Source of the DNA: Blastocatellia bacterium
GTDB taxonomy: Bacteria > Acidobacteriota > Blastocatellia > RBC074
Assembly: GCA_016789725.1 (NCBI GenBank)
Contig: JAEUQN010000001.1
Span: 142,588 to 206,587, forward strand
Reading direction: 5' to 3'
DNA length: 64,000 nucleotides
Shown: positions 1-17,741 of the stretch, piece by piece
Layout: each line of letters begins with the position of its first letter
How positions within the stretch are numbered: the first letter of the stretch is position 1
Program-made: the position numbers and the translations under genes
Notes under the pieces: generated by a model
What the model saw: only the letters and a program-made list of their open reading frames with translations
What the model was told of the DNA's origin: nothing
The model's database searches: none

Positions 1-2555
1 TCGTACTGCCCGCTCCACTCGACGTAATATCCGGTCGGCAGCTTGATCTGTGCGGCGACGGCGCGTTTGGCTTCGTCAATAAATGATCCCGTGTCGCGCC
101 CGCGCACATTGAGCAGCACGAGGCCGCGCAGCAAACTGTTCTCGCTCGAAATCATCGTCGGGCCATTGACTACACGAATGTCCGCGACCTGACCCAATGG
201 AACCTGCGTTCCATTCATCCCGGCGACAAGTACCTTGCTGATTGCTTCGGGCGTGTCGCGCAGTTCGCGCATATAACGCACGCGCACCGGAAAGCGTTGA
301 CGGCCTTCAATCGTCGTCGTCAGGTTGTTGCCGCCGATGGCCGTCTCGATCACGTCCTGCAAATCCTGTTTATTGATGCCGTAGCGCGCGATCTCCTGCG
401 GGCGCGGGACGATTTCGAGATACGGCACGCCGCCAAGTTGTTCGGGATAGACATCCGCCGCGCCGCGAATATTCAGCACGACTGCCGCGACTTCTTTCGA
501 TTTTTGTTCGAGCGTCTTGAGGTCAGAGCCGAAGACTTTGATTCCGACCTGTGTGCGAATGCCGGTCGAAAGCATGTCAATGCGATTGATGATTGGCTGC
601 GTCCAGATGTTCGTCACGCCGGGCATCTGCAAGGCCGCGTCCATTTCGTTGATGAGCATGTCTTTGGTCAGCCCCGGTCGCCATTGGCTTTCCGGTTTCA
701 GGTTGATGATCGTCTCCGTCATATTCACGGGCGCAGGGTCGGTCGAGGTTTCCGCGCGTCCGAGCTTGCCGACCACTGATTCAACTTCGGGGAAACGGCG
801 AATCACCTCGTCTTCCATCCGCAGCAGCTCTTTAGCGCGCGTGATCGAGATTGAGGCGTCCGTCACCGGCATATACATCAGTGTCCCTTCATTGAGCGGC
901 GGCATAAATTCAGAGCCGATGCCGGTGGCGAGATAGAGCGAACCGCCGAAGAGCGCGAGCGCGAGGCCGATGGTGATGATGCGATGGCGCAGCGCGAAGG
1001 CCAGCACAGGCCGATAAATGCCGAGTAGGAAGCGCATCAGATAGTTATCGTCTTCGTCGTGAATCTTCCCGCGGATCAGCAATGTGCAAAGCGCAGGCGT
1101 CAGCGTAATCGCCAGCAGTGTCGCGCCGACCAGTGCGAAAGTTTTCGTGAACGCGAGCGGGTGAAACAGCTTTCCTTCCTGCCCGGTGAGCGAGAAGACC
1201 GGCACGAAGGCCAGAATGATAATTGCCATCGAGAAGAAGATCGGTCGCCCGACCAGCCGTGCCGACTCGATCACCACGTCCTTGATCTTCCGCTCGTAAT
1301 CGGGCGTCTTGCCGGCATAACGCATCGCATTTTCAGTCACGACGATGCCCGCGTCTACCAGCACGCCGATGGCAATGGCGATGCCGCCCAGACTCATAAT
1401 GTTCGAGCTAATCCCGGCGTATTTCATAAACAGGAACGAAATCAGGATGGCGAGCGGCAATGGAATTGTTACGATCAGAATCGAGCGGAAGTGCCAGAGA
1501 AAAAGGATGTGCGCGAGCGTGACCAGGATGATCTCCTCAATCAGCGAATCTTTGAGCGTATTCACGGCGCGCTGAATCAAGTCGGTGCGGTCGTAGAACG
1601 GCACGATCTTGACGCCTTCGGGCAGCCCTTTTTGCAAGTCGGTAATCTTCGCCTTGACGCGGGCGATCACCTCTTGCGTGTTCTCGCCGTAGCGGATGAT
1701 GACCACGCCGCCGACTGCTGCAATGCCCATCTTGTCGAGCGCGCCGCGCCGGAAGTCGGGGCCGGTCGTGACCGAAGCGACTTGCCGCAGATAAACAGGC
1801 GTGCCGTTGCGTTCGGTGAGCACAATCTTTTCCAGGTCGGCCATGCTCTGAATCAGGCCGAGGCCGCGAATCACAAAGTCTTTGCCGCCGCCTTCGATCA
1901 ACTTGCCGCCAACGTTGTTGTTGCTGCGCTCAATCGCCATCTTCACATCAGCGAGCGTCACGTTGTAAGCGCGCAATTTGTTCGGATCAATGTCCACCTG
2001 ATACTGCCGCACGTAGCCGCCGACCGAAGCGACTTCCGCGACACCCGGAACAGAATTGAGTTGATAGCGAATGAACCAATCCTGCAACGAACGCAGTGTT
2101 CCCATATCCTGCCCTTTGCCTTCGACTGTGTACCAATAGACTTGTCCGACGCCCGTCGCATCCGGGCCAAGCGTCGGCACGACACCCGCTGGCATTTGGC
2201 TCATCGCCAGATTCAGCTTTTCCAGCACGCGCGTCCGCGCGAAGTAGAGATTGGTGTCGTCGTTGAAGATGATGTTGATCATTGAGAAGCCGAAGGCCGA
2301 TGACGAGCGGATCACGCGCACCCCGGCCAGCCCCTGCAAGTTGACGGTCAGCGGATACGTGACCTGATCTTCGACTTCCTGCGGCGAACGCCCCGACCAG
2401 TCGGTGAAAACGATCACCTGGTTTTCCGAAAGGTCGGGGATCGCATCAATCGGCGTGCGCAGCAGCGCCCAGTAGCCCCAGCCCGCGATGGCGATATACG
2501 CCAGCAAAACCAGGAACCGATTGCGAACGGAGAATTCGATGATCTGGCCAATCAT
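1..2555 (-). CDS. cusA: CusA/CzcA-type heavy-metal RND efflux pump, C-terminus cut by window edge
   Basis: Inner-membrane proton-driven RND transporter that should export a metal cation through the adaptor and TolC protein encoded just upstream. The reading frame runs open from the ATG at 2555 to the window start, about 851 codons of an expected ~1040. It opens [18 protein letters not shown], the first transmembrane helix of heavy-metal RND pumps, and contains the TM4 motif [13 protein letters not shown] with the conserved Asp and Glu of the proton relay. TM4 resembles CusA more than CzcA, so a monovalent metal (Cu/Ag) is likely, but this is inference. The start overlaps the stop of the adaptor gene (ATGA), so the two are translationally coupled. 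Confidence 0.93.
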
Positions 2556-3805
2556 TGCTGCTCCTTCTTTCCCATCGCGGATTTCAAATTATCGATTTGA
2601 GATTTCAACTGCGTCTCCGAATCAATCAGGTACTGAATATTGCGCGCCACCTTCTCGTCCGCGCGCAGCCCGGAGCGCACGGTGTAAACCTCTTGCCCCT
2701 GCGTGCCGACTTTGATTTCGCGCAAAGAGAATTTGCTGTTGCCGTCGTCTACCAGCACGAGTTGGCGCGCGCCCGTATCAATCACGGCATCGCGCGGCAC
2801 GACCAGTTGCGGCGGCGGCTGCACCGCGAGACTCACGTTGACGAACATGCCCGGCTTGAGGCGCAGGTTCGGATTGCTGAATTCGAGCCGCACCTTCGCC
2901 GTGCGTGTCGTCGGCTCAATCAGTGGATTGATGAACGCCACCCGTCCCGTCTGTGTGCTGCCATCGGGCAGCGTTACTTCACCCCGCATTCCGACGCGCA
3001 CGTTCATCAGGTCACTTTCGTACACGTCGGCTTCCACCCAGATCGTCGAGAGGTCGGCGAGCGTGTAAAGTTCGACGTCCGGCATCACGCGCGTGCCAGG
3101 GAAGGCTTTGCGCGCGATGATGACGCCTGACGCCGGCGCGTAGACGGTGATGGCCTTTTGCACTTGGCCTGTCTGCTCAAGCGCAGCGATCTGCTGTGGC
3201 GTCACATCCCACAACTGCAAGCGGCGGCGCGTGGCTTCCACGAGCGAGCCGCCCGAATTGCGCACGACTTCAAATTCGCTTTTGCCGAAGTCCTGCCGTG
3301 CCTTCAATGCGATCAGATACTCCTGCTGCGTGGCGACGAGTTCCGGGCTGTAGAGGGTGAAGAGCGGCTGCCCCTTCTGAATTTGCTGCCCCTCGAAGTT
3401 GCCCATTGTCTCCTCAATCCAGCCTTCGACTTTCGCCTGCACATGCGTGATGCGCCGCTCGTCGGGCATCACCCGCCCCGTGGTGCTGACTGGTTGATTG
3501 AATGAGCGCCACTCGACCGTCGCCGTTTGCAAACCGAGGAACTGCGCGGTATTGGCATCAATCGTGATGGCATTGGTTTGATTCGCGGCTTCCGCTTGCT
3601 CCATCTCAACGGCGAGTTGTCCGGCAGGAACCGCAGGCGCGGGCGGCGGCGCTTTCTCCCAGAAGCGCAGCTTGCGCGCCATCGTTGTCGCACGCAGGGC
3701 GGGCGCAAAGGCGAAGGCCGCCAGCGTCCCGAACGTCGCCAGCAAGATCGTGAGCGCCAGCAGCAAGCGCCAGCGCCGTTTGAGAAATGCAGTCACTCGT
3801 TTCAT
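2552..3805 (-). CDS. cusB: CusB-like periplasmic adaptor of a metal RND efflux pump
   Basis: Membrane-fusion protein of 417 aa bridging the RND pump and the TolC channel. An N-terminal membrane anchor lies at about residues 13-35. The barrel-sandwich region carries the family signature [13 protein letters not shown] at about 152-164, typical of CusB/CzcB proteins, followed by helical hairpin and beta-barrel segments. It lacks the separate CxxC-type heavy-metal-binding insertion seen in the second CusB at 14242-15840. It is second of three pump genes: TolC-like protein 3 bp upstream, pump overlapping by 4 bp downstream. Confidence 0.92.
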
Positions 3806-5924: not shown

Positions 5925-6872
5925 CTACTTATGCTCGCGCTTTTTGATCTCTTCAAAGGCTTCCGCCACTTTAGCCCGCTGGCGGTCTTTCAGTTCCGGG
6001 TAACGCTGTAACCATTGATTGAGTGCCTCTTCCGAACTGAAGAGGTTGATGACTCCTCAGCCACCGCCCATAAACAGCATCGCTGATTTCGGCTCCACCT
6101 TGCGCAGCTTGCCTTTGTCGAATTCCACCCGAATGCGCGTGGTGCTTTCGGGTGATGAGTCTTCGAGGATGACTTTTTCTTTCGCATATTTGTTGCTGAC
6201 CAGCAACAGACCGTCTACCGCTCAGTTGACACTCGTGTTACGACCTGACGAAACCGTCATCCGGTGAAAGACAAAGTCCAAGCGCGGCTGCCAGTTCACA
6301 TAACGCGCCGCCGCCAACGAATAGCCTGCGCCTCCGGCGTCGGCATCCCGCCTCAGAATCTGATACCGTTCGAGCATCGCCAGACCGCGTTTCGCATCGC
6401 TCTGTGAAAGGTCAACGGCTTTAGCGATTTCCGCAAGCGTCGGCACTGGCTTCTGTTCGCGCACGGCGTTGCTGATAACGCGGGCAATCAGCTTTTCATT
6501 CGGCGTCAGGACAAGTGTTTCCCAGCCCCAGCGCCTGATGATGAGGTGCAGTTCGGGATGCTGTTTGATGTGCTGACCGATGCGAAAGCGCGTTTCATCT
6601 GACGCGCGCAAGCCTACCATTGCCATCGCCTGATCTACGGTTGCGACGCTGTGGTCTTTGCCCCAAACGCCTTGCAGGTATTCGATCACTTTCTTTTCCG
6701 GCGGACTCAATTCAATGTCGCTTGCAGTGGCTTGGGTTGATTGCCCCTCAGTCTGAGCTTTGGCAACCGGGAGCGTTGTGGTCAGCACAACCGCGCAACA
6801 TATCGCCAGCATCCAGCGCCGGGCGATTACGACTGCGCGGCGGTTGCCGATGTAAAAAGCAGAGTCAATCAT
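5925..6872 (-). CDS. merB: MerB-like organomercurial lyase, predicted selenoprotein with two selenocysteines, exported
   Basis: Read through two in-frame TGA codons (6222-6224 and 6057-6059) this is one 315-aa protein ending in TAG at 5925. Residues 1-40 form a signal peptide (RR n-region, hydrophobic MLAICCAVVLTTTL, cleavage near AKAQ); helical/winged-helix sequence follows. The C-terminal third matches MerB: U217-AVD220 aligns with Cys96-ALD99, and U272-GVINLFSS aligns with Cys159-CHVHFFAS, followed by a MerB-like helix. All three catalytic positions (Cys96, Asp99, Cys159) become Sec, Asp, Sec. Each TGA is followed by a SECIS-like hairpin. Sequence between and after the TGAs keeps normal coding character. 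RBS AAAGGA sits 8 nt before the ATG. MerB cleaves C-Hg bonds; known MerB is cytoplasmic and uses Cys. Alternative: a pseudogene with two nonsense mutations, which their exact placement makes unlikely. Confidence 0.85.
6026..6045 (-). promoter_or_regulatory. Putative bacterial SECIS hairpin for the second TGA of the MerB-like gene
   Basis: Twelve nt after the TGA at 6057-6059 the message reads CCTCTTC-AGTTCG-GAAGAGG, a perfect 7-bp stem with a 6-nt loop whose second base is G. The loop starts 19 nt after the TGA, inside the 16-37 nt range reported for bacterial SECIS elements. SelB would bind this loop to direct Sec insertion. Confidence 0.7.
6191..6208 (-). promoter_or_regulatory. Putative bacterial SECIS hairpin for the first TGA of the MerB-like gene
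   Basis: Fourteen nt after the TGA at 6222-6224 the message forms TGTTGCT-GGTC-AGCAACA, a perfect 7-bp stem with a GGUC tetraloop starting at +21. The same GGUC loop occurs in the hairpin of the neighbouring MerP-TlpA gene, and GGUC also resembles the apical loop of the E. coli fdhF SECIS. Confidence 0.75.
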
Positions 6873-6904: not shown

Positions 6905-7621
6905 TCAGTGAGCAGCGAGCAGGGATTCAATCTCGCGTTCCAGTTCTTTTTGGTCAGGCAGCTTGCCAGTGAATTTTCTGTGAACTTTGAAATCTTTGTC
7001 GAGGATGTAAGTTGTGGGGAATCCGATCACGTCGTACTTCTCGACAACTTCATCATCGCCGATAAGGGTTGAGTATGTGACTTTGTGTTTGTCACGATAA
7101 GGTTTGATGTCCTCAGCCCAGCCCGATTGCACGGCAATCCCAATCACCTTGACCCCACGACTGGCGTACTTCGCGTGCAGGCTGTTGAAGGTCGGAATCT
7201 CCGCCAGACAAGGGCCGCACCACGTCGCCCAGAAATCCAGCACGACGACACGGCCTTTCAAATCCGCCAAGCTTATCTGTTGCCCGTCAAGGCCAGGCAG
7301 CTTGAACTCAGCCGCTGGCTGAGCGGCTTCTTTCACTTTTCCGGCCTTGAAGCCAGTGCTGTTAATAACATCACGCAGCTTGGTGACGGTAGCTTTTTTG
7401 TCATCGTATTTAATCCAAGCCTCAGCCTTCGGATAACTCACCTTCGCATCTATGACGCCATCGGTTTCTTTCAAAGCCTGCTCGACCGAGCGGGCGCAAC
7501 CGTCTCACGTCATCCCCTCAACGCTGAAAGTGATGGTTTTCTCTTCGGCTCGCGCCTTGATTGCGCCAAACGCCAAAAGCGGCGTAGCCAGTAAGAGGCT
7601 CGCGAAATCCCTTCTACGCAT
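6905..7621 (-). CDS. Exported MerP(HMA)-TlpA fusion, predicted selenoprotein (GMT-Sec-DGC)
   Basis: A frame opening with ATG at 7621 (RBS AAGGAG 9 nt upstream) reads through TGA at 7505-7507 and ends at 6905, giving 238 aa. Residues 1-25 are a Tat-like signal (MRRRDFASLLLATPLLAFGA). Residues 30-95 form an HMA/MerP domain whose metal loop reads GMT-U39-DGC, so the first Cys of GMTCxxC is selenocysteine; the following SVEQALKETDGVIDAKVSY is classic HMA. Residues 105-238 are a TlpA/thioredoxin-like domain with the redox motif FWATWCGPC. The gene overlaps the CopZ-like gene by 8 nt and precedes the MerB-like gene by 32 nt. Likely role: periplasmic Hg(II) capture plus thiol/selenol redox upkeep (inference). 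Without recoding only a truncated TlpA-like product would remain. Confidence 0.85.
7476..7495 (-). promoter_or_regulatory. Putative bacterial SECIS hairpin of the MerP-TlpA gene
   Basis: Nine nt after the TGA at 7505-7507 the message reads GCCCGCTC-GGTC-GAGCAGGC: seven base pairs with one C-A mismatch and a GGUC tetraloop starting at +18. Geometry and loop match the first hairpin in the MerB-like gene. Confidence 0.75.
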
Positions 7622-8093
7622 TTTCTATTTCTCCTTTCGCAACCAGTTGTTGCGCGGTTTTATTAACATCGCCCAGACAGCACGCGCCCGCTGGATTGCG
7701 AATCTCACAAGCGCAAATCTTCTCTTTGATAAATCGGCTGATTTGAGCCGGAATCTTTGTCTTTCCGGTCTGCGTCAATTCCTTGCGGATGTCGCCTTCA
7801 GTAAAGCCAAAGCAATAGCAGAGAGGCCGCGCGTCTCCGCTGGTCTTTGGAGTGACAGGCTCACGCACGTCGTTGACGGTGAACACGGCCCCACCCGCGC
7901 CATAGTAAACAACGGTACAGGCCAGAGCAGGACAAAACCGATAATCATCATCACTCACGCGTGCAAGCAGTTCGCTCCTGACATGATGCAGTACCGTTCG
8001 ACGCTCCACGCTGCGCCCCGTTGCGCCGCATTCAGCACAAAGCGCCACGCTTCCGGTTGGTGATGGTTTCGGTGGGCAACAACAGTTACTCAT
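7614..8093 (-). CDS. CopZ-like iron-sulfur metallochaperone of the mer operon
   Basis: 159-aa soluble cytoplasmic protein with eleven or more cysteines in pairs: CCC at 4-6, C19/C22, C54/C59, CYC at 92-94, CAC at 127-129 and CC at 138-139. The spacing of the last pairs resembles the N-terminal Fe-S domain of CopZ-type chaperones and BFD-like [2Fe-2S] proteins; similar genes in mer operons are usually annotated as putative iron-sulfur-binding metallochaperones. It starts 5 bp after merTP and overlaps the start of the MerP-TlpA gene, so it sits inside the operon. Hg(II) handover or redox sensing is inference. Confidence 0.8.
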   Translation of the reverse strand: MSNCCCPPKPSPTGSVALCAECGATGRSVERRTVLHHVRSELLARVSDDDYRFCPALACTVVYYGAGGAVFTVNDVREPVTPKTSGDARPLCYCFGFTEGDIRKELTQTGKTKIPAQISRFIKEKICACEIRNPAGACCLGDVNKTAQQLVAKGEIENA

Positions 8094-8098
8094 GGTTT

Positions 8099-8695
8099 TT
8101 ACCTGGCCTTATATCCGGTTGCGCTAATTGCATTCTTGAGCTTGTCAAGATTTGTTTGCGTTGGGTTGTACTGAATGCGCGCGTTCCCATTTTTGTAACT
8201 CACCTCAGCCGCGCGAACGCCGGGCGTCTGGTCGAGTGCTGCTTTAATCGGTACTTCGCAGCTTTCACATGTCATTCCCTCAACTGCAACCGTCACCGTC
8301 TCAAGCGAGCCTGATTGAGCGGCAGCAACCGGCGCGGATTGTTTCTGACGCACAACCGCCGCCGCGATATAGCCCACGTAATAGGGAGAGAGCGCAAAAG
8401 CTACGACCGCAAACAGCGCCACCCAGAGAGCCGCGTGATTCACTTTGCTGACAGGCACTGTGGCGCACGCCTCGCCGGGCGCACATTGTTCGCAGCGAAA
8501 ATAGACGCGATAAAAGCCAAAGGCTAACGCCAGGCCTGCGACCGTCAGAAGATACGGGCGTAGTGATTCAAAGATGGACGCAGCGCCGAATGCACCTAGC
8601 CCAAAAAGTGCAAATAGCACAGGCCCGAGGCAACAAAGACCCGCGCCGAACGCTGCCGCGATTGCTCCGCCCAGCGCAAACTTTTCTGATCTCAT
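8099..8695 (-). CDS. merTP: MerT-MerP fusion mercuric ion transporter
   Basis: 198-aa fusion. The MerT part (residues 1-115) has three predicted membrane helices, the Cys pair C21-C22 in TM1 and a cytoplasmic Cys cluster at C68, C71 and C77. The C-terminal MerP/HMA part has the standard GMTCESC loop at 141-147. It takes periplasmic Hg(II) into the cytoplasm in characterised systems. The ATG at 8695 overlaps the merR stop (ATGA). It keeps cysteine at the HMA loop, unlike the selenocysteine version two genes downstream. Confidence 0.93.
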   Translation of the reverse strand: MRSEKFALGGAIAAAFGAGLCCLGPVLFALFGLGAFGAASIFESLRPYLLTVAGLALAFGFYRVYFRCEQCAPGEACATVPVSKVNHAALWVALFAVVAFALSPYYVGYIAAAVVRQKQSAPVAAAQSGSLETVTVAVEGMTCESCEVPIKAALDQTPGVRAAEVSYKNGNARIQYNPTQTNLDKLKNAISATGYKAR

Positions 8696-9129
8696 CGCGT
8701 TCCCTCCTTTCTTGTTCGAGTGCGTGAGAGATTCGTGAGCACAGGGCATTGAGCCTTGCTGCCGCGCTCTTGCAGTTCCTTTTTACAGGCCGCCAGATGC
8801 TGCGCAAGGGTGCGGCGAAATTCGCGCATCATCCGCAGCCGCTCATCCAACGCTGACAGCTTAGCGCTGAGCAAATCGCGCACGCGCTGACACTCCGTTG
8901 CACCACCAGTGGTGAGAACTCCTCCGATTTCCTCAAGTGAAAAACCGAGTGCTTGCGCCTGCTTGATGAATTTCACCCGCTCTACCGCCTCCACAGTGAA
9001 GAGACGAAAGCCTCCTTCTGCGCGTGGGGCCGCTGGTAAAAGTTGGCGTCGCTCGTAATAGCGCACCGTGTCAATGCTGACCCCGGCGCGGCGCGCCACC
9101 TCTCCGATGCGAATTGCAGATGAACTCAT
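8692..9129 (-). CDS. merR: MerR, mercury-responsive transcriptional regulator
   Basis: 145 aa with the MerR-family winged helix (IGEVARRAGVSIDTVRYYER), dimerisation helix and three cysteines at 80, 115 and 128, matching the Hg(II)-binding Cys82/117/126 set of Tn21 MerR. It is the first gene of the operon it controls, with a MerR-type promoter immediately upstream, so regulation is autogenous. The stop overlaps the merTP start. Confidence 0.92.
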   Translation of the reverse strand: MSSSAIRIGEVARRAGVSIDTVRYYERRQLLPAAPRAEGGFRLFTVEAVERVKFIKQAQALGFSLEEIGGVLTTGGATECQRVRDLLSAKLSALDERLRMMREFRRTLAQHLAACKKELQERGSKAQCPVLTNLSRTRTRKEGTR

Positions 9130-10943: not shown

Positions 10944-13900
10944 TTATCCAGTTGCGCCTTGCAGTGGCAACTCTGCGACCGCCAACTGCTTGACTTCAGA
11001 ATGCCATTTCCAGATCGCGTAGATCGCCGGATAGACGAACAGTTCGAGCGCAAATGAGAAGAACATCCCGGCGATCATCGGCGCAGCAATGCGCTTGGTC
11101 AGGTCTGCGCCCGTGCCCGCCGCCAGCATCACTGGCAGCAGACCGATGAAGTCCACCGCGACGGTCATGAACTTCGGACGCAGCCGCTGCACCGATCCCT
11201 CCAGGATTGCTTTATGCAAGTGCGCCTTCGTTTTCATCCGGCCTTTGGCTTTCATCCCGTCATAAGCCATGTCCAGGTAGAGCAGCATGAAGACGCTCGT
11301 TTCCGCGTCTACTCCGAGGAAGGCGATCAGCCCAACCCAGACTGGAATGCTCAGGTTGTAACCGAGCAGATAGAGCAGCCACATCGCGCCGGCTGCCGAA
11401 AACGGCAGTGACAGCAGGACGATCAGCGTGTACGCCACCGACTTCGTGTTGAAGTACATCAGCAGGAAGATGATGAAGAGGGCAATCGGCACCACGATCA
11501 TTAGCTTTTCGGCGACGCGCACCATATTTTCGTATTGTCCGCTCCAAACCAACGTGAAGCCGACTGGCAGTTGCACCTGTTCTTTGACGGCCCGCTTGGC
11601 ATCGTTCACGTAGCCGCCGATGTCGCGCCCGCCCACGTCCACGTAGACATAACCGCTCAGCCGCCCGTTTTCATCTCGGATCATGCCGGGGCCGGAGAGC
11701 AGCTTGATGTCGGCCAACTGACTCATGGGAATCTGCGCGCCGCTCATCGTCGGCACGAGGGTGCGGTTGAGCCGGTCAACCGTGCTGCGATAATCGCGCA
11801 AGTAACGCACGTTGACCGGGTAGCGTTCGCGCCCTTCGACCGTCGTCGTCACGCCTTCGCCGCCTACCGCCGACATCACCACCATGTTTACTTGGTCAAT
11901 CGTCAGGCCGTAGCGCGCCAACTCTTCGCGCTTGAGGTTGAAGTCGAGGAAGTACCCGCCCGCCGTGCGCTCGGCAAAAACGCTGGTCGTGCCCGGCACG
12001 TCTTTCAGCGCCATCTCAAGGTGTTGGCCGATCTCCTGAATCTTGGTGAGATCGGGGCCGAGCACCTTGATGCCAACCGGCGTGCGCACGCCTGTGGTGA
12101 GCATATCCACGCGCGCCTTGATCGGCATCGTCCACGCGTTGACCACGCCGGGCAGTTGCACTTTCTCATTCAGCCCGCCGGGGCCGTAGATCAGTTCTTC
12201 GGTGCTTTGGTGATCCGGCCATCCCACTCGCAGGATTTTTTGCAACCACTCCGGCGCGCGGTCTGAATACCAACGCTTCACTTTCGGCCATTGATCCTTT
12301 GGCTTGAGCGTAACCACTGTTTCCATCATCGAGAAGGGCGCGGGATCGGTCGCCGTCTCAGCCCGTCCCGCCTTGCCGAAGACGCGGTCAACTTCGGGGA
12401 AGGATTTGATGAGCTTGTCTTGCACTTGCAGCAACCGCTGCGCTTCGGTGACGGAGATGCCGGGCAGTGTCGTCGGCATGTAAAGCAGCACGCCTTCATC
12501 AAGCGGCGGCATGAATTCAGAGCCAAGCCGCAGGTAAATCGGAATGGTGAGCAGCACGACCAGCACTGCGCCAATCACTATCGCCCAGCGGAACCGCAGC
12601 ACGAACTCGACGACAGGCTGATAGAGCCAGTGCAGAAAGCGGCTCAAGGGGTGTTGCTCTTCAGGATGGATTTTGCCGGCGATGATTTTGTTGGTGAGCC
12701 AGCACAGCCAGCGCGGGCGGAAGTCGAACCGCTGCGGACGAATGAACAGAATGATCAGGGCCGGAACCAGCGTGACGGAGAGCACGGCGGCAATGGCGAT
12801 GGCAAAGATTTTGGTGAAGGCGAGCGGCTTGAAGAGCTTCCCTTCCTGCGCTTCGAGCGCGAAGATCGGCGTGAAGGCGATTGCGATCACCAGCAGTGAA
12901 TAGAAACACGGCGGGCCGACCTCTTTGGCCGCGCTGATGACCACGTCCCTGAAATCGCCCGGCGAGCCTTGCGCCAGCCATGCTTCCAGCTTCTTGTGCG
13001 TCTGCTCGACGGTCACGATGGATGAATCCACCATCGAGCCAATCGCAATCGCGATGCCGCCGAGCGACATGATGTTGGCTGTGATGTCCAGCCCCAGCAT
13101 TGGAATGAAGGAGAGGATGACCGCAATCGTAATCGTGACGATTGGGATGGCCGCGCTAGTCAGATGCCAGAGGAAGATGATGATGACCAGGCTGACGACG
13201 ATCAGTTCCTCGCTCAGCGATTCCGACACCGTGGCAATCGCGCCCTCGATCAACTCGCCCCGGTCGTAGGTGGTCACAACCTTCACGCCTTCAGGCAAGG
13301 TCGGTTCGATGTCGGCCAACTTCACTCTGACTTTTTCGATCACCCGCATTGCGTTCTCGCCGGAACGCATAATGACAATCCCGCCGACGGTTTCGCCCTG
13401 GCCGTCAAGTTCCGCGATGCCGCGCCGCAGGTCAGGGCCGAGCGTCACCGTGCCGAGATTTTTCACCAGCACCGGCGTGCCGCTTTCATTCGTGGCGACG
13501 ACGGTGTGCTCGACATCAGCGGTCGAACGAAGGTAGCCGCGTCCGCGCACCATGTATTCGCGGCCCGTGAATTCCACCAGACGGCCACCGACATCATTGT
13601 TGCCCGCTCTGATTGCTGCGACGACTTTATCGAGCGGAATTTTGTACGACGACAATTTGTTGGGATCGAGATTGACCTGATACTGCCGCACGAAGCCGCC
13701 AATCGGCGCGACCTCTGCTACGCCCGGCAGCGCTTGCAGTTCGTATCTCAGCCGCCAGTCCTGGAGCGAGCGCAGTTCCGCCAGATTGTGTTTGCCTGTG
13801 GTATCAATCAGCGCGTACTGAAAGACCCAACCAACAGCAGTTTCGTCACGTCCCAGTTCGACACTCACTCCCTGCGGCAGCTTGGGCGTGATGTTGCTTA

Positions 13901-14237
13901 GATATTCGAGCGTGCGCGAGCGCGCCCAGTAGATGTCCGTGCCGTCCTCAAAGATGATGTAGACGTAGGAGAACCCGAAATCAGAAAACCCGCGAATGTC
14001 CTTCACTTTCGGCACGCCGAGCAGCGAGGAGATAATCGGGTAGGTCACCTGATCTTCCATGATGTCCGGGCTGCGATCCCAGCGCGAGTAAATGATGACT
14101 TGTGTATCGGAAATGTCCGGGATGGCATCAAGCTTGATGTTCTTCATTGACCACAGCCCGACGAGCGTCGCCATCCCGACAAAGAGCAGGACGATGAATT
14201 TATTGAGCGCACAGAATTCAATCAATTTGCCGATCAT
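10944..14237 (-). CDS. cusA: CusA-type heavy-metal RND efflux pump (second system)
   Basis: Complete 1097-aa RND transporter with the two-fold arrangement of twelve helices and two large periplasmic loops. TM4 reads GSMVDSSIVTVEQTHKKL, closest to the CusA (Cu/Ag) class; Asp and Glu are retained, with VEQ replacing the more usual VEN/IEN. Starts MIGKLIEFCALNKFIVLL. It lies 4 bp from the adaptor gene upstream and 11 bp from the transglycosylase downstream. Substrate assignment is by motif only. Confidence 0.93.
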   Translation of the reverse strand: MIGKLIEFCALNKFIVLLFVGMATLVGLWSMKNIKLDAIPDISDTQVIIYSRWDRSPDIMEDQVTYPIISSLLGVPKVKDIRGFSDFGFSYVYIIFEDGTDIYWARSRTLEYLSNITPKLPQGVSVELGRDETAVGWVFQYALIDTTGKHNLAELRSLQDWRLRYELQALPGVAEVAPIGGFVRQYQVNLDPNKLSSYKIPLDKVVAAIRAGNNDVGGRLVEFTGREYMVRGRGYLRSTADVEHTVVATNESGTPVLVKNLGTVTLGPDLRRGIAELDGQGETVGGIVIMRSGENAMRVIEKVRVKLADIEPTLPEGVKVVTTYDRGELIEGAIATVSESLSEELIVVSLVIIIFLWHLTSAAIPIVTITIAVILSFIPMLGLDITANIMSLGGIAIAIGSMVDSSIVTVEQTHKKLEAWLAQGSPGDFRDVVISAAKEVGPPCFYSLLVIAIAFTPIFALEAQEGKLFKPLAFTKIFAIAIAAVLSVTLVPALIILFIRPQRFDFRPRWLCWLTNKIIAGKIHPEEQHPLSRFLHWLYQPVVEFVLRFRWAIVIGAVLVVLLTIPIYLRLGSEFMPPLDEGVLLYMPTTLPGISVTEAQRLLQVQDKLIKSFPEVDRVFGKAGRAETATDPAPFSMMETVVTLKPKDQWPKVKRWYSDRAPEWLQKILRVGWPDHQSTEELIYGPGGLNEKVQLPGVVNAWTMPIKARVDMLTTGVRTPVGIKVLGPDLTKIQEIGQHLEMALKDVPGTTSVFAERTAGGYFLDFNLKREELARYGLTIDQVNMVVMSAVGGEGVTTTVEGRERYPVNVRYLRDYRSTVDRLNRTLVPTMSGAQIPMSQLADIKLLSGPGMIRDENGRLSGYVYVDVGGRDIGGYVNDAKRAVKEQVQLPVGFTLVWSGQYENMVRVAEKLMIVVPIALFIIFLLMYFNTKSVAYTLIVLLSLPFSAAGAMWLLYLLGYNLSIPVWVGLIAFLGVDAETSVFMLLYLDMAYDGMKAKGRMKTKAHLHKAILEGSVQRLRPKFMTVAVDFIGLLPVMLAAGTGADLTKRIAAPMIAGMFFSFALELFVYPAIYAIWKWHSEVKQLAVAELPLQGATG

Positions 14238-14241
14238 CGCC

Positions 14242-15840
14242 TCACTCCTTCCTCTTCGGCTGATGCTGCGAGTGGTCTTCAGATTTGGACTGCGGTGTTG
14301 CCGTCGCGCCCGGCTGATGCCCTGAATGATCCGCTTGCTTGGGCGGAAACGATGGTTTGCCCGTTGCCGGGGAGTTGGACGCAGGAGCTTTGCTCTCGCC
14401 GTGATTCATGCCAGGCATGCCCATTCCGCCCGCTGCCGCTTTCAATTTGCTTTCGGAATCAATCAGGAAGTTGGCTGAAGTCACGATGCGTTCGCCTGCT
14501 TTTAGCCCACTCAGCACGATGAATTCGTGATCCACCTTTGCGCCCAGTTGTACCTTGCGCGGCTCGAAATAACCGCCATCGTGGGCCACAAAGACCAGTT
14601 GCTCTGCGCCTGAATCCAGCACGGCTTCCTGCGACACCACGACCTGTTTGCCGTAGCCGATGCCCAGTTCGACGTTCACGAACATATCGGGTTTCAGCGC
14701 GAAACCAGAATTGGCAAGCTCCACGCGCACTTTCAAGGTGCGCGTCGTGTTGTCGAGTTGCGGATTGATATAAGTGACTTTGCCCCGGTAGGAACGACCG
14801 GGAGCATACGAAAGGGTGACCGTAGCTGCTTGCCCAACTTTGATTTCAGGCGCTTCGGATTCGTAGATGTCGGCGATTACCCAGATCGTCGCAAGGTCGG
14901 CAATCGCATAAAGCTCGGTTTCCGGCGTCACACGCTGTTTCGGAAACGCATTGCGCGTGAGCACAAAGCCGTCCGAGGGCGCGTACAGTGTGAGCGCCTT
15001 GAACGGCTTGCCGGTGTGTTCGAGATGTTCGAGTTGCGCCATTTCAATGTCCCATAGCTCCAGCCGCTTGCGCGCCGCTTCCAGCAGCGAGGCGCTGCTT
15101 GCCACAGCTTCACGAAACGGGCTGTTCGCCAGTTCGTTGCGGCCTTTGAGCGCCAGCAAATACTCCTGCTGTGTCTGCCAAAGTTCTGGACTGTAGATGC
15201 TGATGAGCGGCTGTCCCTTGCCGACCTGTTTGCCGATGAAATCCACGAAGACCTGTTCGACCCAGCCTTCAACTCTGGAATGGACGCGCACAATCTTTGT
15301 CTCGTCCCAGGTTAGACGTCCTACCGCGCGCAAGGTTCTGCTGATGGCCTTGAACCCCACTGTGCTGTACTGCACACCGATTAACTGCTGTTTTTCCGGG
15401 CTGATCTGAATCGTGCCTTCCGGCAGGTTCGGTTTGACTGCGGTGGTTTCCTCTGCATAAACGGGCACTAAATCCATGCCGCAGTCTGGTGCCTTGCCGG
15501 GCTTGTCGGATTTGTAGGCCGGGTGCATCGGATCAACCCAGTATTGCACTTTCTTCTCGGCGATCTGTGCGGTGGTGTCTTTTGCAATGAGCCTGAGCAA
15601 GCGCGTTCGATACGCATAGCCTGCGCTTGCCAACCCGATGAGCAGGAGTAATACAACCCAACGAAACATTGGTCGTTTCTTCGCTGGCCGGGCAGCTTCA
15701 CCTTCACCAGGTTCCTCTGTTTTCACAGAAGGCTGTCCGGCCTCTATCTCAATGCGAGCTTCCTCCTGCTTTGGTTCAACTGCCGGGGGAACTGGGCCGG
15801 TTTGCTTTTCTTCCGGTTGTTTGTCTGTGACCGACATCAT
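14242..15840 (-). CDS. cusB: CusB-like adaptor with N-terminal heavy-metal-binding domain
   Basis: About 532 aa using the ATG at 15840, which has AAAGAGG 5 nt upstream (an in-frame ATG at 15885 exists). Order: charged N-terminus, one membrane helix, a heavy-metal-binding domain (YWVDPMHPAYKSDKPG ... CGMDLVPVY, about 99-130), the barrel-sandwich with IYSPELWQTQQEYLLAL, a beta-barrel, then a Met/His/Pro-rich tail with repeated HSGHQ and HSQHQ. Both ends could bind Cu or Ag. It differs from the tail-less CusB at 2552-3805. Confidence 0.92.
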   Translation of the reverse strand: MMSVTDKQPEEKQTGPVPPAVEPKQEEARIEIEAGQPSVKTEEPGEGEAARPAKKRPMFRWVVLLLLIGLASAGYAYRTRLLRLIAKDTTAQIAEKKVQYWVDPMHPAYKSDKPGKAPDCGMDLVPVYAEETTAVKPNLPEGTIQISPEKQQLIGVQYSTVGFKAISRTLRAVGRLTWDETKIVRVHSRVEGWVEQVFVDFIGKQVGKGQPLISIYSPELWQTQQEYLLALKGRNELANSPFREAVASSASLLEAARKRLELWDIEMAQLEHLEHTGKPFKALTLYAPSDGFVLTRNAFPKQRVTPETELYAIADLATIWVIADIYESEAPEIKVGQAATVTLSYAPGRSYRGKVTYINPQLDNTTRTLKVRVELANSGFALKPDMFVNVELGIGYGKQVVVSQEAVLDSGAEQLVFVAHDGGYFEPRKVQLGAKVDHEFIVLSGLKAGERIVTSANFLIDSESKLKAAAGGMGMPGMNHGESKAPASNSPATGKPSFPPKQADHSGHQPGATATPQSKSEDHSQHQPKRKE

Positions 15841-15911
15841 CGCAGCCTCTTTCTTCCCACAGAAAATGGCTGACGCTGATTTCAATGAAACCAGCGCCAG
15901 TGGAAAGCGGT

Positions 15912-16313
15912 TTATTTGCCTTCCATCTCCTTCGCTCGCATCGTGTGGAACTTCGCCATGTCTTCGGCTTCCTCTGCGAGTGCCTCAGCCGCCCTGCTAT
16001 ACTTCTGGCAATGCAGCCGCATCTTCTTGATGTAGCCGCTCTCTCCCGTGTCCTTCGGATTTCGGGCGACCGTCTTGCTGTAATCAGCCAGCATCTTTTT
16101 ATGCGCTGCGGCCTCCTTGCGATATTCTTCGGCCTTCTTCTGATACTGTTCAGCGCGCGCTCGGTGTTCTTGCGCGGTCTGCGGAGCCTTCATCTCCTGC
16201 CCGTGATCGTGGTGATCTTGCGCGACGGCCAGGACGCTCAGCGTGCCGATAGTTAGGAGTAAAAACGCGAGTTTGGCGATGGTGTTGTGAATCGTTGTCA
16301 TGTTGTTTTTCAT
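15912..16313 (-). CDS. Small secreted coiled-coil protein in the second cus operon
   Basis: 133 aa from the ATG at 16313 (AAAGG upstream; an in-frame ATG at 16358 lacks a signal). The signal peptide is followed by a HDHG metal-binding-like patch and a long charged helix rich in Ala, Lys and Glu with heptad spacing (about 45-125), containing a single Cys. No family recognised. It is inserted between the TolC and CusB genes, where some operons carry small periplasmic metal chaperones; that role is inference. Confidence 0.75.
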   Translation of the reverse strand: MKNNMTTIHNTIAKLAFLLLTIGTLSVLAVAQDHHDHGQEMKAPQTAQEHRARAEQYQKKAEEYRKEAAAHKKMLADYSKTVARNPKDTGESGYIKKMRLHCQKYSRAAEALAEEAEDMAKFHTMRAKEMEGK

Positions 16314-16403
16314 ATTTGCCTTTCTTGAAATAAGTTGTTTAGTTTCCCTTGCGGGCATTAGTTTGAGTGCTTAGTTGATGAACGTTTTCGCGTGCGCTAA
16401 TCG

Positions 16404-17741
16404 TTAGGGTCTCAAGGTGATTCCGACCAGTGGTTCCAGCGCCGCAATAGCTTTCTCCACGTTGGCGAGTTGTTCGTAATAACTCAGTTCGTAATTGAGC
16501 AGCGTTACCAGATTGTCGAGCAGGGTCAGAAAATCTACTTTCCCGACTTCATACCCGGCGATGGCGGATTCGAGCGATAATGATGATTGCGGAATAATCG
16601 TCGTGCCGTACAGTTTCAACAATCGCTGGGCCGTCATTGCCAACAAGTAGCGATCCTTGATGCGGAAGAAAAGCCGCGTCGTGATGTTGTCCAATCGCTG
16701 CTTTTCCAGCGCCGCGCTGGCCGTCGCTTCCGCCACTGCGGGACGTTGCTTTTGTCCCCAATAAAGCGGCAGTTTCATCCCGACATTCACGCCGTACATT
16801 TCTGGCATCCCAGGGCGATTGAAGTACGTGACGCCAACTGAAAAATCGGGATAGAAATCTTTTTTCGCCAGTTCGACGCCGTATTGCTCGCGGTCAATTC
16901 TGCGTCGTTGCGCTTTCAACGTCGGAAAGTTCGTGAGCGCCAGTTCTCTGAGTTCCAGCAAACCCATCGTGAAGTCCTGCGGCTTGATTTCTGCTGGTTT
17001 TCCGACTGGGGTTTCCGGCTCGCGGAAGAGCAAACTATTGAGTTGCGCCTCTGCCGTTTGTTTGCGCTGTTCCAGCACCGTCAGTTGGTCAATCAGCTTG
17101 GAGACTTCGACCTGCGCTTTCAGCACGTCTTGCTGGATGCCTTTGCCAACGGCATAGCTGGCTTCAGCGATCCTGGTGAATTTCTCCAGCAGGTCTTTGT
17201 TCTTGGTGACAACTTCGATGGCTTTGTGCAGGTAATACAAATCGTAGTAGGTGTCTTTGACTTCGGCGACGACGTTCCACTGCACCTGTTCGTAGTTCCA
17301 CCACTCCGATTCCGCTGCGACGTTAGCCATCTTGCCCTTAATCGCCAGTTTGCCGGGATACGGAATTTCCTGCGTTACACTGACCACACGCGCACTGGCA
17401 GGATCGCCTTTTTGAATATCAAAGGGCGGGAGCGGAACAGCATTGCCGGTGTAACTGTAACTGAGCATCGGTTCCGGTAAAGCTTTCGCTTGTGGCACGC
17501 GCGCGCGCATCAGGTCGAAGTTGCGCCGCATCGCAATAATTTCCGGGTTCTGCGCCAACGCCTCTTCAATCAACGCGCGCAGCGATAACACGGCAGGACG
17601 TTGCGGCTTGGCAGGCGGGCGAATGGCTGCTGTCTTCGCGGGCGGAGAAATATTGTGGGAAGCGAGTTGTGCCGTAACCTTCTCAGACAATGAGAGAAGC
17701 CCGACCAACGCGAGCATTGCAAGTGCTGCGAGTCTCATCAC
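16404..17741 (-). CDS. cusC: TolC-family outer-membrane channel (second cus system)
   Basis: 445-aa outer-membrane efflux protein with signal peptide and two OEP repeats; SLRALIEEALAQNPEIIAMR opens the first helix. It is similar in architecture to the channel at 3809-5116. It lies 90 bp upstream of the small coiled-coil protein and 96 bp downstream of the Cys-rich leader gene, and should pair with the CusBA at 10944-15840. Confidence 0.92.
   Translation of the reverse strand: MMRLAALAMLALVGLLSLSEKVTAQLASHNISPPAKTAAIRPPAKPQRPAVLSLRALIEEALAQNPEIIAMRRNFDLMRARVPQAKALPEPMLSYSYTGNAVPLPPFDIQKGDPASARVVSVTQEIPYPGKLAIKGKMANVAAESEWWNYEQVQWNVVAEVKDTYYDLYYLHKAIEVVTKNKDLLEKFTRIAEASYAVGKGIQQDVLKAQVEVSKLIDQLTVLEQRKQTAEAQLNSLLFREPETPVGKPAEIKPQDFTMGLLELRELALTNFPTLKAQRRRIDREQYGVELAKKDFYPDFSVGVTYFNRPGMPEMYGVNVGMKLPLYWGQKQRPAVAEATASAALEKQRLDNITTRLFFRIKDRYLLAMTAQRLLKLYGTTIIPQSSLSLESAIAGYEVGKVDFLTLLDNLVTLLNYELSYYEQLANVEKAIAALEPLVGITLRP

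Follow-up and report, generated by a model that had tools for sequence, protein, structure and literature searches.

Gene content of the locus

The analysed window is a stretch of 64,000 nt from a Blastocatellia bacterium (contig JAEUQN010000001.1 of assembly GCA_016789725.1, positions 142,588-206,587). It carries a mer-type operon on the minus strand, in the order merR, merT-merP, a CopZ-type gene, a gene for an HMA-TlpA fusion, a gene for a MerB-like protein with two in-frame UGA codons, a gene for a short Cys-rich protein, and TolC-like and CusB-like genes. The features are as follows, with Sec (U) standing for the selenocysteine predicted at a UGA.

8692..9129 (-), MerR-family regulator
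8099..8749 (-), MerT-MerP (HMA) fusion transporter
7614..8093 (-), CopZ N-terminal-type iron-sulfur metallochaperone (NF047645)
6905..7621 (-), predicted exported HMA-TlpA fusion with Sec39 (GMT-U-DGC) and the TlpA motif WCGPC
7505..7507 (-), in-frame UGA (Sec39) of the HMA domain
7480..7491 (-), SECIS-like hairpin core of Sec39, GGUC loop, 17 nt after the UGA
5925..6872 (-), predicted di-selenocysteine MerB-like protein, 315 aa on read-through (from the ORF, Pfam, orthologues and a structure model)
6756..6872 (-), predicted signal peptide of the MerB-like protein (RRW-MLAICCAVVLTTTLPV-AKA/Q), read by eye
6222..6224 (-), UGA codon 217, predicted Sec217, in the place of MerB Cys96 (U-A-V-D220)
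6191..6208 (-), SECIS-like hairpin of Sec217 with a stem of 7 bp and a GGUC loop, 20 nt past the UGA
6057..6059 (-), UGA codon 272, predicted Sec272, in the place of MerB Cys159 (GGG-U-GVINLF)
6026..6045 (-), SECIS-like hairpin of Sec272, 7-bp stem, AGUUCG loop
3809..5233 (-), TolC/CusC-like outer-membrane efflux protein, downstream
2552..3805 (-), CusB-like membrane-fusion protein, downstream

The UGA of HMA-TlpA converts the GMTCxxC metal motif of its HMA domain to GMT-U-DGC. Together with the di-Sec MerB, this would give an operon with two selenoproteins and three Sec residues. A second Cus-type efflux set (an RND pump, a CusB with a heavy-metal-binding domain, and TolC) lies beside the mer-like operon at 10944-17741 (-).

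A MerB relative with UGA at both catalytic cysteines

The MerB-like frame, 6872..5925 (-), starts with ATG, ends with TAG and has exactly two internal stops, both TGA. A sequence-only reading of this DNA had described one frame with in-frame TGAs at 6222 and 6057 that stays MerB-like across them, and both parts of that description stand. The read-through protein matches PF03243 (MerB) over residues 203-306 (5955-6266, E=3e-11); the score is 43.8 bits, the cut-off 27, and both TGAs lie inside the matched region. When a profile of eight orthologues (see below) is aligned to the MerB chains in the PDB, U217 pairs with the Cys of WCALD (Cys96), D220 with Asp99, and U272 with Cys159, which is the first Cys of SFCCHVHFF, in agreement with the earlier assignment of U217-AVD220 to Cys96-ALD99 and of U272 to Cys159. 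Counting Sec as the selenium equivalent of Cys, U217/D220/U272 is the catalytic set Cys96/Asp99/Cys159 of the MerB superfamily. The AlphaFold model of the read-through protein has a pLDDT of 80, and its top 11 PDB matches are all MerB or MerB2 (E 1.6e-7 to 1.4e-4); no other PDB match has an E below 0.001, and the TM-scores are moderate at 0.44-0.49 of the target.

The protein is a distant relative of the curated enzymes. It scores 21.2 bits against the NCBIfam equivalogs NF009710 and NF033555, which have cut-offs of 193 and 200, and this low score makes its substrate identity uncertain. The structural Cys117 is absent, with SSPE in its place, and is present in the distant members L057-L060 (SCAH). 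The predicted signal peptide suggests that the protein is probably periplasmic.

Conservation and selection in orthologues

Pfam MerB and a profile of the window clade served to search for relatives within the class (162 genomes) and across the phylum (396 genomes). Seven further members of the clade were found, from three other host genera in three families, with 28-57% identity to the window protein. A scan of genome contigs with the single protein gave no relative, and an alignment-based scan gave three; the host contigs of three orthologues come from public MAGs that bear the labels Blastocatellia, Pyrinomonadaceae and Acidobacteria, and the window genome belongs to the same class. A tblastn search of plasmids matched only an alkylmercury lyase family protein of Pseudomonas sp. 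K-62 (29%).

All eight orthologues have UGA at both codons, in complete frames without any other internal TGA, and all eight have a hydrophobic N-terminus like that of a signal peptide. Asp99 is invariant among them, as are both Sec. Across a 13-sequence alignment the only invariant columns are M1, L167, C/U217, D220, C/U272, F278 and S280. No Cys orthologue of the window's exact clade was found in the genomes searched. In each of the three segments that the two UGAs delimit, codon position 3 changes roughly two to four times as often as positions 1 and 2, and the excess past both UGAs argues that the downstream sequence is translated. Amino-acid identity after U272 is also as high as before U217. 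Purifying selection thus persists beyond both UGAs in these orthologues. At the level of sequence the gene is confirmed to encode a MerB relative in which both catalytic cysteines are exchanged for predicted selenocysteine, and the double exchange is judged real because it is conserved in seven related genomes.

UGA in MerB homologues across Acidobacteriota

MerB family matches occur in 29 of the 396 Acidobacteriota genomes searched. In an alignment set of 44 Acidobacteriota MerB homologues, the residues at positions 96/159 are Sec/Sec in 13, Cys/Sec in 20, Cys/Cys in 10 and Ser/Trp in one, so that 33 of the 44 have at least one catalytic UGA. The UGAs within the matched MerB regions all fall in the two catalytic columns (46/46), a count that covers the Pfam-matched segments, since extraction ended at any TGA outside them. 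This placement, like the sharing of both UGA codons by all eight orthologues, is far beyond chance.

The commonest type is a mono-Sec MerB with Cys96 retained and UGA exactly at the Cys159 position (L041-L044, L046-L048, L063-L071, L073, L074, L077 and L081). The 13 di-Sec sequences form two separate clades in the tree, the window clade, predicted to be exported, and a clade of five (L032, also L032/L040, with L083, L084, L085 and L089) with the motif AAUAED...YUxxxxFFWSEEH. L040, the member of this second clade whose full frame was examined, has no evident signal peptide, and the neighbours of the second-clade genes are unlike mer operons. The data neither establish nor reject a single origin for all di-Sec MerBs (AU test, p=0.21).

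Several homologues depart from these patterns. L076, L079 and L082 keep both Cys and have Val or Ile in place of Asp99; they adjoin a di-Sec gene or sit a few kb from one (in genomes G190, G177 and G162). In L075 and L080, Asp99 is replaced by Cys (CLWCAFG) and both catalytic positions are Cys; SelA does not reach the cut-off in one of their hosts, G475, whose genome is 100% complete. L078, from genome G312, which has selA, carries Ser in place of Cys96 and Trp where Sec159 would be, and is possibly a decayed former mono-Sec MerB.

Sec machinery of the host

The sequence-only reading had named the Sec genes of the host and the residues of homologues at positions 217 and 272 as points on which it could fail, and both came out in its favour. 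The host assembly (7.77 Mb, 88.6% complete) has a tRNA-Sec with a UCA anticodon, SelB, SelA and SelD. The host selD (L020, G000:C233) appears to be a selenoprotein gene itself, with an in-frame TGA near its N-terminus followed by a strong hairpin that has a GUU loop and not GGUC. Of the 37 genomes that carry a MerB homologue, 34 have SelA over the cut-off; the other three are G119 (a fragmented MAG, partial match), G257 (a MAG, no match) and G475 (a complete genome with a Cys-only MerB, nothing over the cut-off). It is likewise over the cut-off in 143 of 158 genomes of the class, so SelA does not discriminate MerB carriers.

A gene interrupted by two in-frame stops in a draft assembly could suggest a pseudogene, an assembly error, or a UGA reassigned to another amino acid. 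The same two codons recur in eight genomes, whose independence excludes an assembly error, and the frame is under purifying selection. UGA affects only the catalytic columns, the Sec machinery is complete, and UGA is an ordinary stop elsewhere. Any explanation of this kind is therefore extremely improbable.

SECIS-like hairpins

At 19-20 nt on the 3' side of nearly every UGA examined lies a hairpin whose apical loop is GGUC, as in the E. coli fdhF element. By the SECIS rule of a G in the first two loop bases, the GGUC loop of U217 conforms, and the AGUUCG loop of U272 is atypical, within the rule. In the window the loop of the Sec272 hairpin is GUUC and its closing pair is broken, where the 15 other compared homologues have AGGUCU/GGUC; the window hairpin still folds, at -12.2 kcal/mol.

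The hairpins covary. At site 2, in 16 sequences, 98.2% of stem cells are paired, the closing pair appears as U-A, A-U or C-G with six double changes, and the covariation score was reached in 0 of 500 shuffles. At site 1, in eight sequences, all stem cells are paired (100%), five cells show double changes, and the score was reached in 2 of 500 shuffles. These sites also code conserved residues, but the double changes span codon boundaries, and among them are synonymous changes of Ser codons. The window holds 14 GGUC hairpins with a stem of at least 4, among which only those of Sec217 and Sec39 lie 17-20 nt past a TGA inside a long frame. The fold energies of single hairpins are modestly better than those of shuffled sequences (z -0.8 to -1.9), and a general scan by single-hairpin SECIS energy separated UGA codons poorly from background. 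The fixed distance of the GGUC loop together with covariation did separate them.

The departure of the U272 hairpin from the GGUC consensus would fit a shorter product, in which Sec is inserted at the first UGA alone, or insertion depends on selenium supply, and translation usually ends at UGA217 or UGA272. Bacterial Sec insertion is often incomplete. Against a usual product of this kind, both UGAs are kept in 8/8 orthologues, selection persists past them with identity after U272 as high as that before U217, and the selD UGA of the same host also has a GUU-loop hairpin. A shorter usual product is thus quite improbable, and a di-Sec protein of full length is the preferred reading.

Proposed function

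The whole explanation that we consider probable is that the gene encodes an exported di-Sec MerB selenoprotein that cleaves organomercurials with an HMA-TlpA partner. It builds on the UGAs at the catalytic columns, the family match, conservation, selection, the hairpins, the Sec machinery, the operon and the TlpA neighbour, all of which are features of sequence; from this anatomy we infer the mechanism, including Sec insertion, export, substrate, catalysis and transfer to the partner. The sequence-only reading, which suggested that a di-Sec active site could make a stronger organomercurial lyase, did not mention the signal peptide or the SECIS hairpins, nor the TlpA partner, the other selenoprotein gene just upstream or the SaoL precedent (below).

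SelB and tRNA-Sec would read UGA217 and UGA272 as Sec, directed by the hairpins, whose apical loops lie about 18-20 nt 3' of the UGAs. The active site would then be Sec96/Asp99/Sec159 in MerB numbering. In MerB, Cys96 and Cys159 bind Hg and Asp99 assists protonolysis (PMC4525700), and this chemistry would carry over directly to Sec/Asp/Sec. After export, the two selenolates may bind the organomercurial in the periplasm, and the Asp would protonate the leaving carbon as in MerB, so that the hydrocarbon is released and Hg(II) stays on the two Sec.

An exported TlpA-like thioredoxin gene lies immediately 5' of the MerB gene at 8/8 loci. Two Sec in an oxidising periplasm would otherwise form a diselenide, so the pair should need a reductant, and the TlpA domain of HMA-TlpA may keep it reduced. 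The Sec/Cys HMA domain may relieve the enzyme of Hg(II), the part that MerA plays for cytoplasmic MerB, and Hg(II) could then pass either to the MerT-MerP fusion or to the products of the Cus-type efflux genes.

It is also possible, if unlikely, that this is a genuine di-Sec protein and not a lyase, serving in the periplasm for metal binding, sensing or as a chaperone, or that it cleaves another organometal or organometalloid. The low score to the curated MerB equivalogs, the missing Cys117 and the extra N-terminal domain agree with such a role, and D99S variants of MerB bind other metals (PMC8261052). A canonical merA was also not found in the 88.6% complete host assembly, which has only MerA-like flavoproteins, none over the cut-off; the four best lack a terminal vicinal Cys pair. 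MerB occurs without MerA in about half of the genomes that have MerB (PMC8261052). Yet Asp99 is invariant alongside both Sec in the eight orthologues, and a pure metal binder would not need it; the operon also contains merR and merTP. An organomercurial lyase remains the favoured role.

Relation to known systems

The window protein shares with MerB (PF03243; R831b MerB, PDB 1S6L/3F0O; MerB2, PDB 5C17) the fold match and the places of Cys96/Asp99/Cys159. It differs in having predicted selenols for both thiols, no Cys117, a predicted signal peptide and a longer N-terminal region. The closest described protein is SaoL (NF040728), a MerB-like selenoprotein of the SAO (selenocysteine-assisted organometallic) system (Haft and Gwadz 2023, as cited in PMC13188914). 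As described there, SaoL is likewise a MerB-related selenoprotein in an organometal context, but has one Sec where the window protein has two. The model NF040728 does not match the window protein at E<=0.1, and gives 14 and 21 bits to two orthologues, with a cut-off of 140. Unlike the setting of SaoL, the window neighbourhood is a mer-type operon, in which no SAO transport genes were recognised. HMA-TlpA resembles the Sec-containing HMA and MerP-type proteins (NF041115, UxxU; the Sec MerP of the GOS survey, PMC2398784) in having Sec in GMTCxxC, but its motif is UxxC, and it combines HMA with TlpA and stands beside a di-Sec MerB.

The sequence-only reading knew of no described di-Sec MerB, and no such description turned up among 5.39 million open papers either; the work of Haft from 2023 and 2025 enters here as represented in a 2026 review. 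In that review, which covers prokaryotic selenoproteins, the single MerB relative listed is SaoL, which has one Sec in a CU motif (PMC13188914). What appears to be new is a MerB-superfamily protein with both catalytic thiols replaced, predicted to be exported and with a conserved redox neighbour.

Implications

We lean somewhat towards a selenium-based organomercurial detoxification in Acidobacteriota, in which an exported di-Sec MerB and a Sec-HMA-TlpA or TlpA protein would act outside the cytoplasm, with a second di-Sec clade that has no signal peptide and a large mono-Sec clade. Mercury binds selenolates far more tightly than thiolates. For this reason, cleavage of methylmercury by two selenols with turnover would test how Hg(II) is released, a step that is only partly understood even in ordinary MerB (PMC4525700). 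No MerB is listed for Acidobacteria in the largest MerB survey that was found, which covers 84,032 genomes (PMC8261052). If the reading is correct, gene finders end such genes at UGA, and surveys that demand the catalytic Cys overlook them. The matches in 29 of 396 genomes, and the UGA in 33 of 44 homologues, suggest that abundant soil bacteria may have a hidden capacity to degrade methylmercury.
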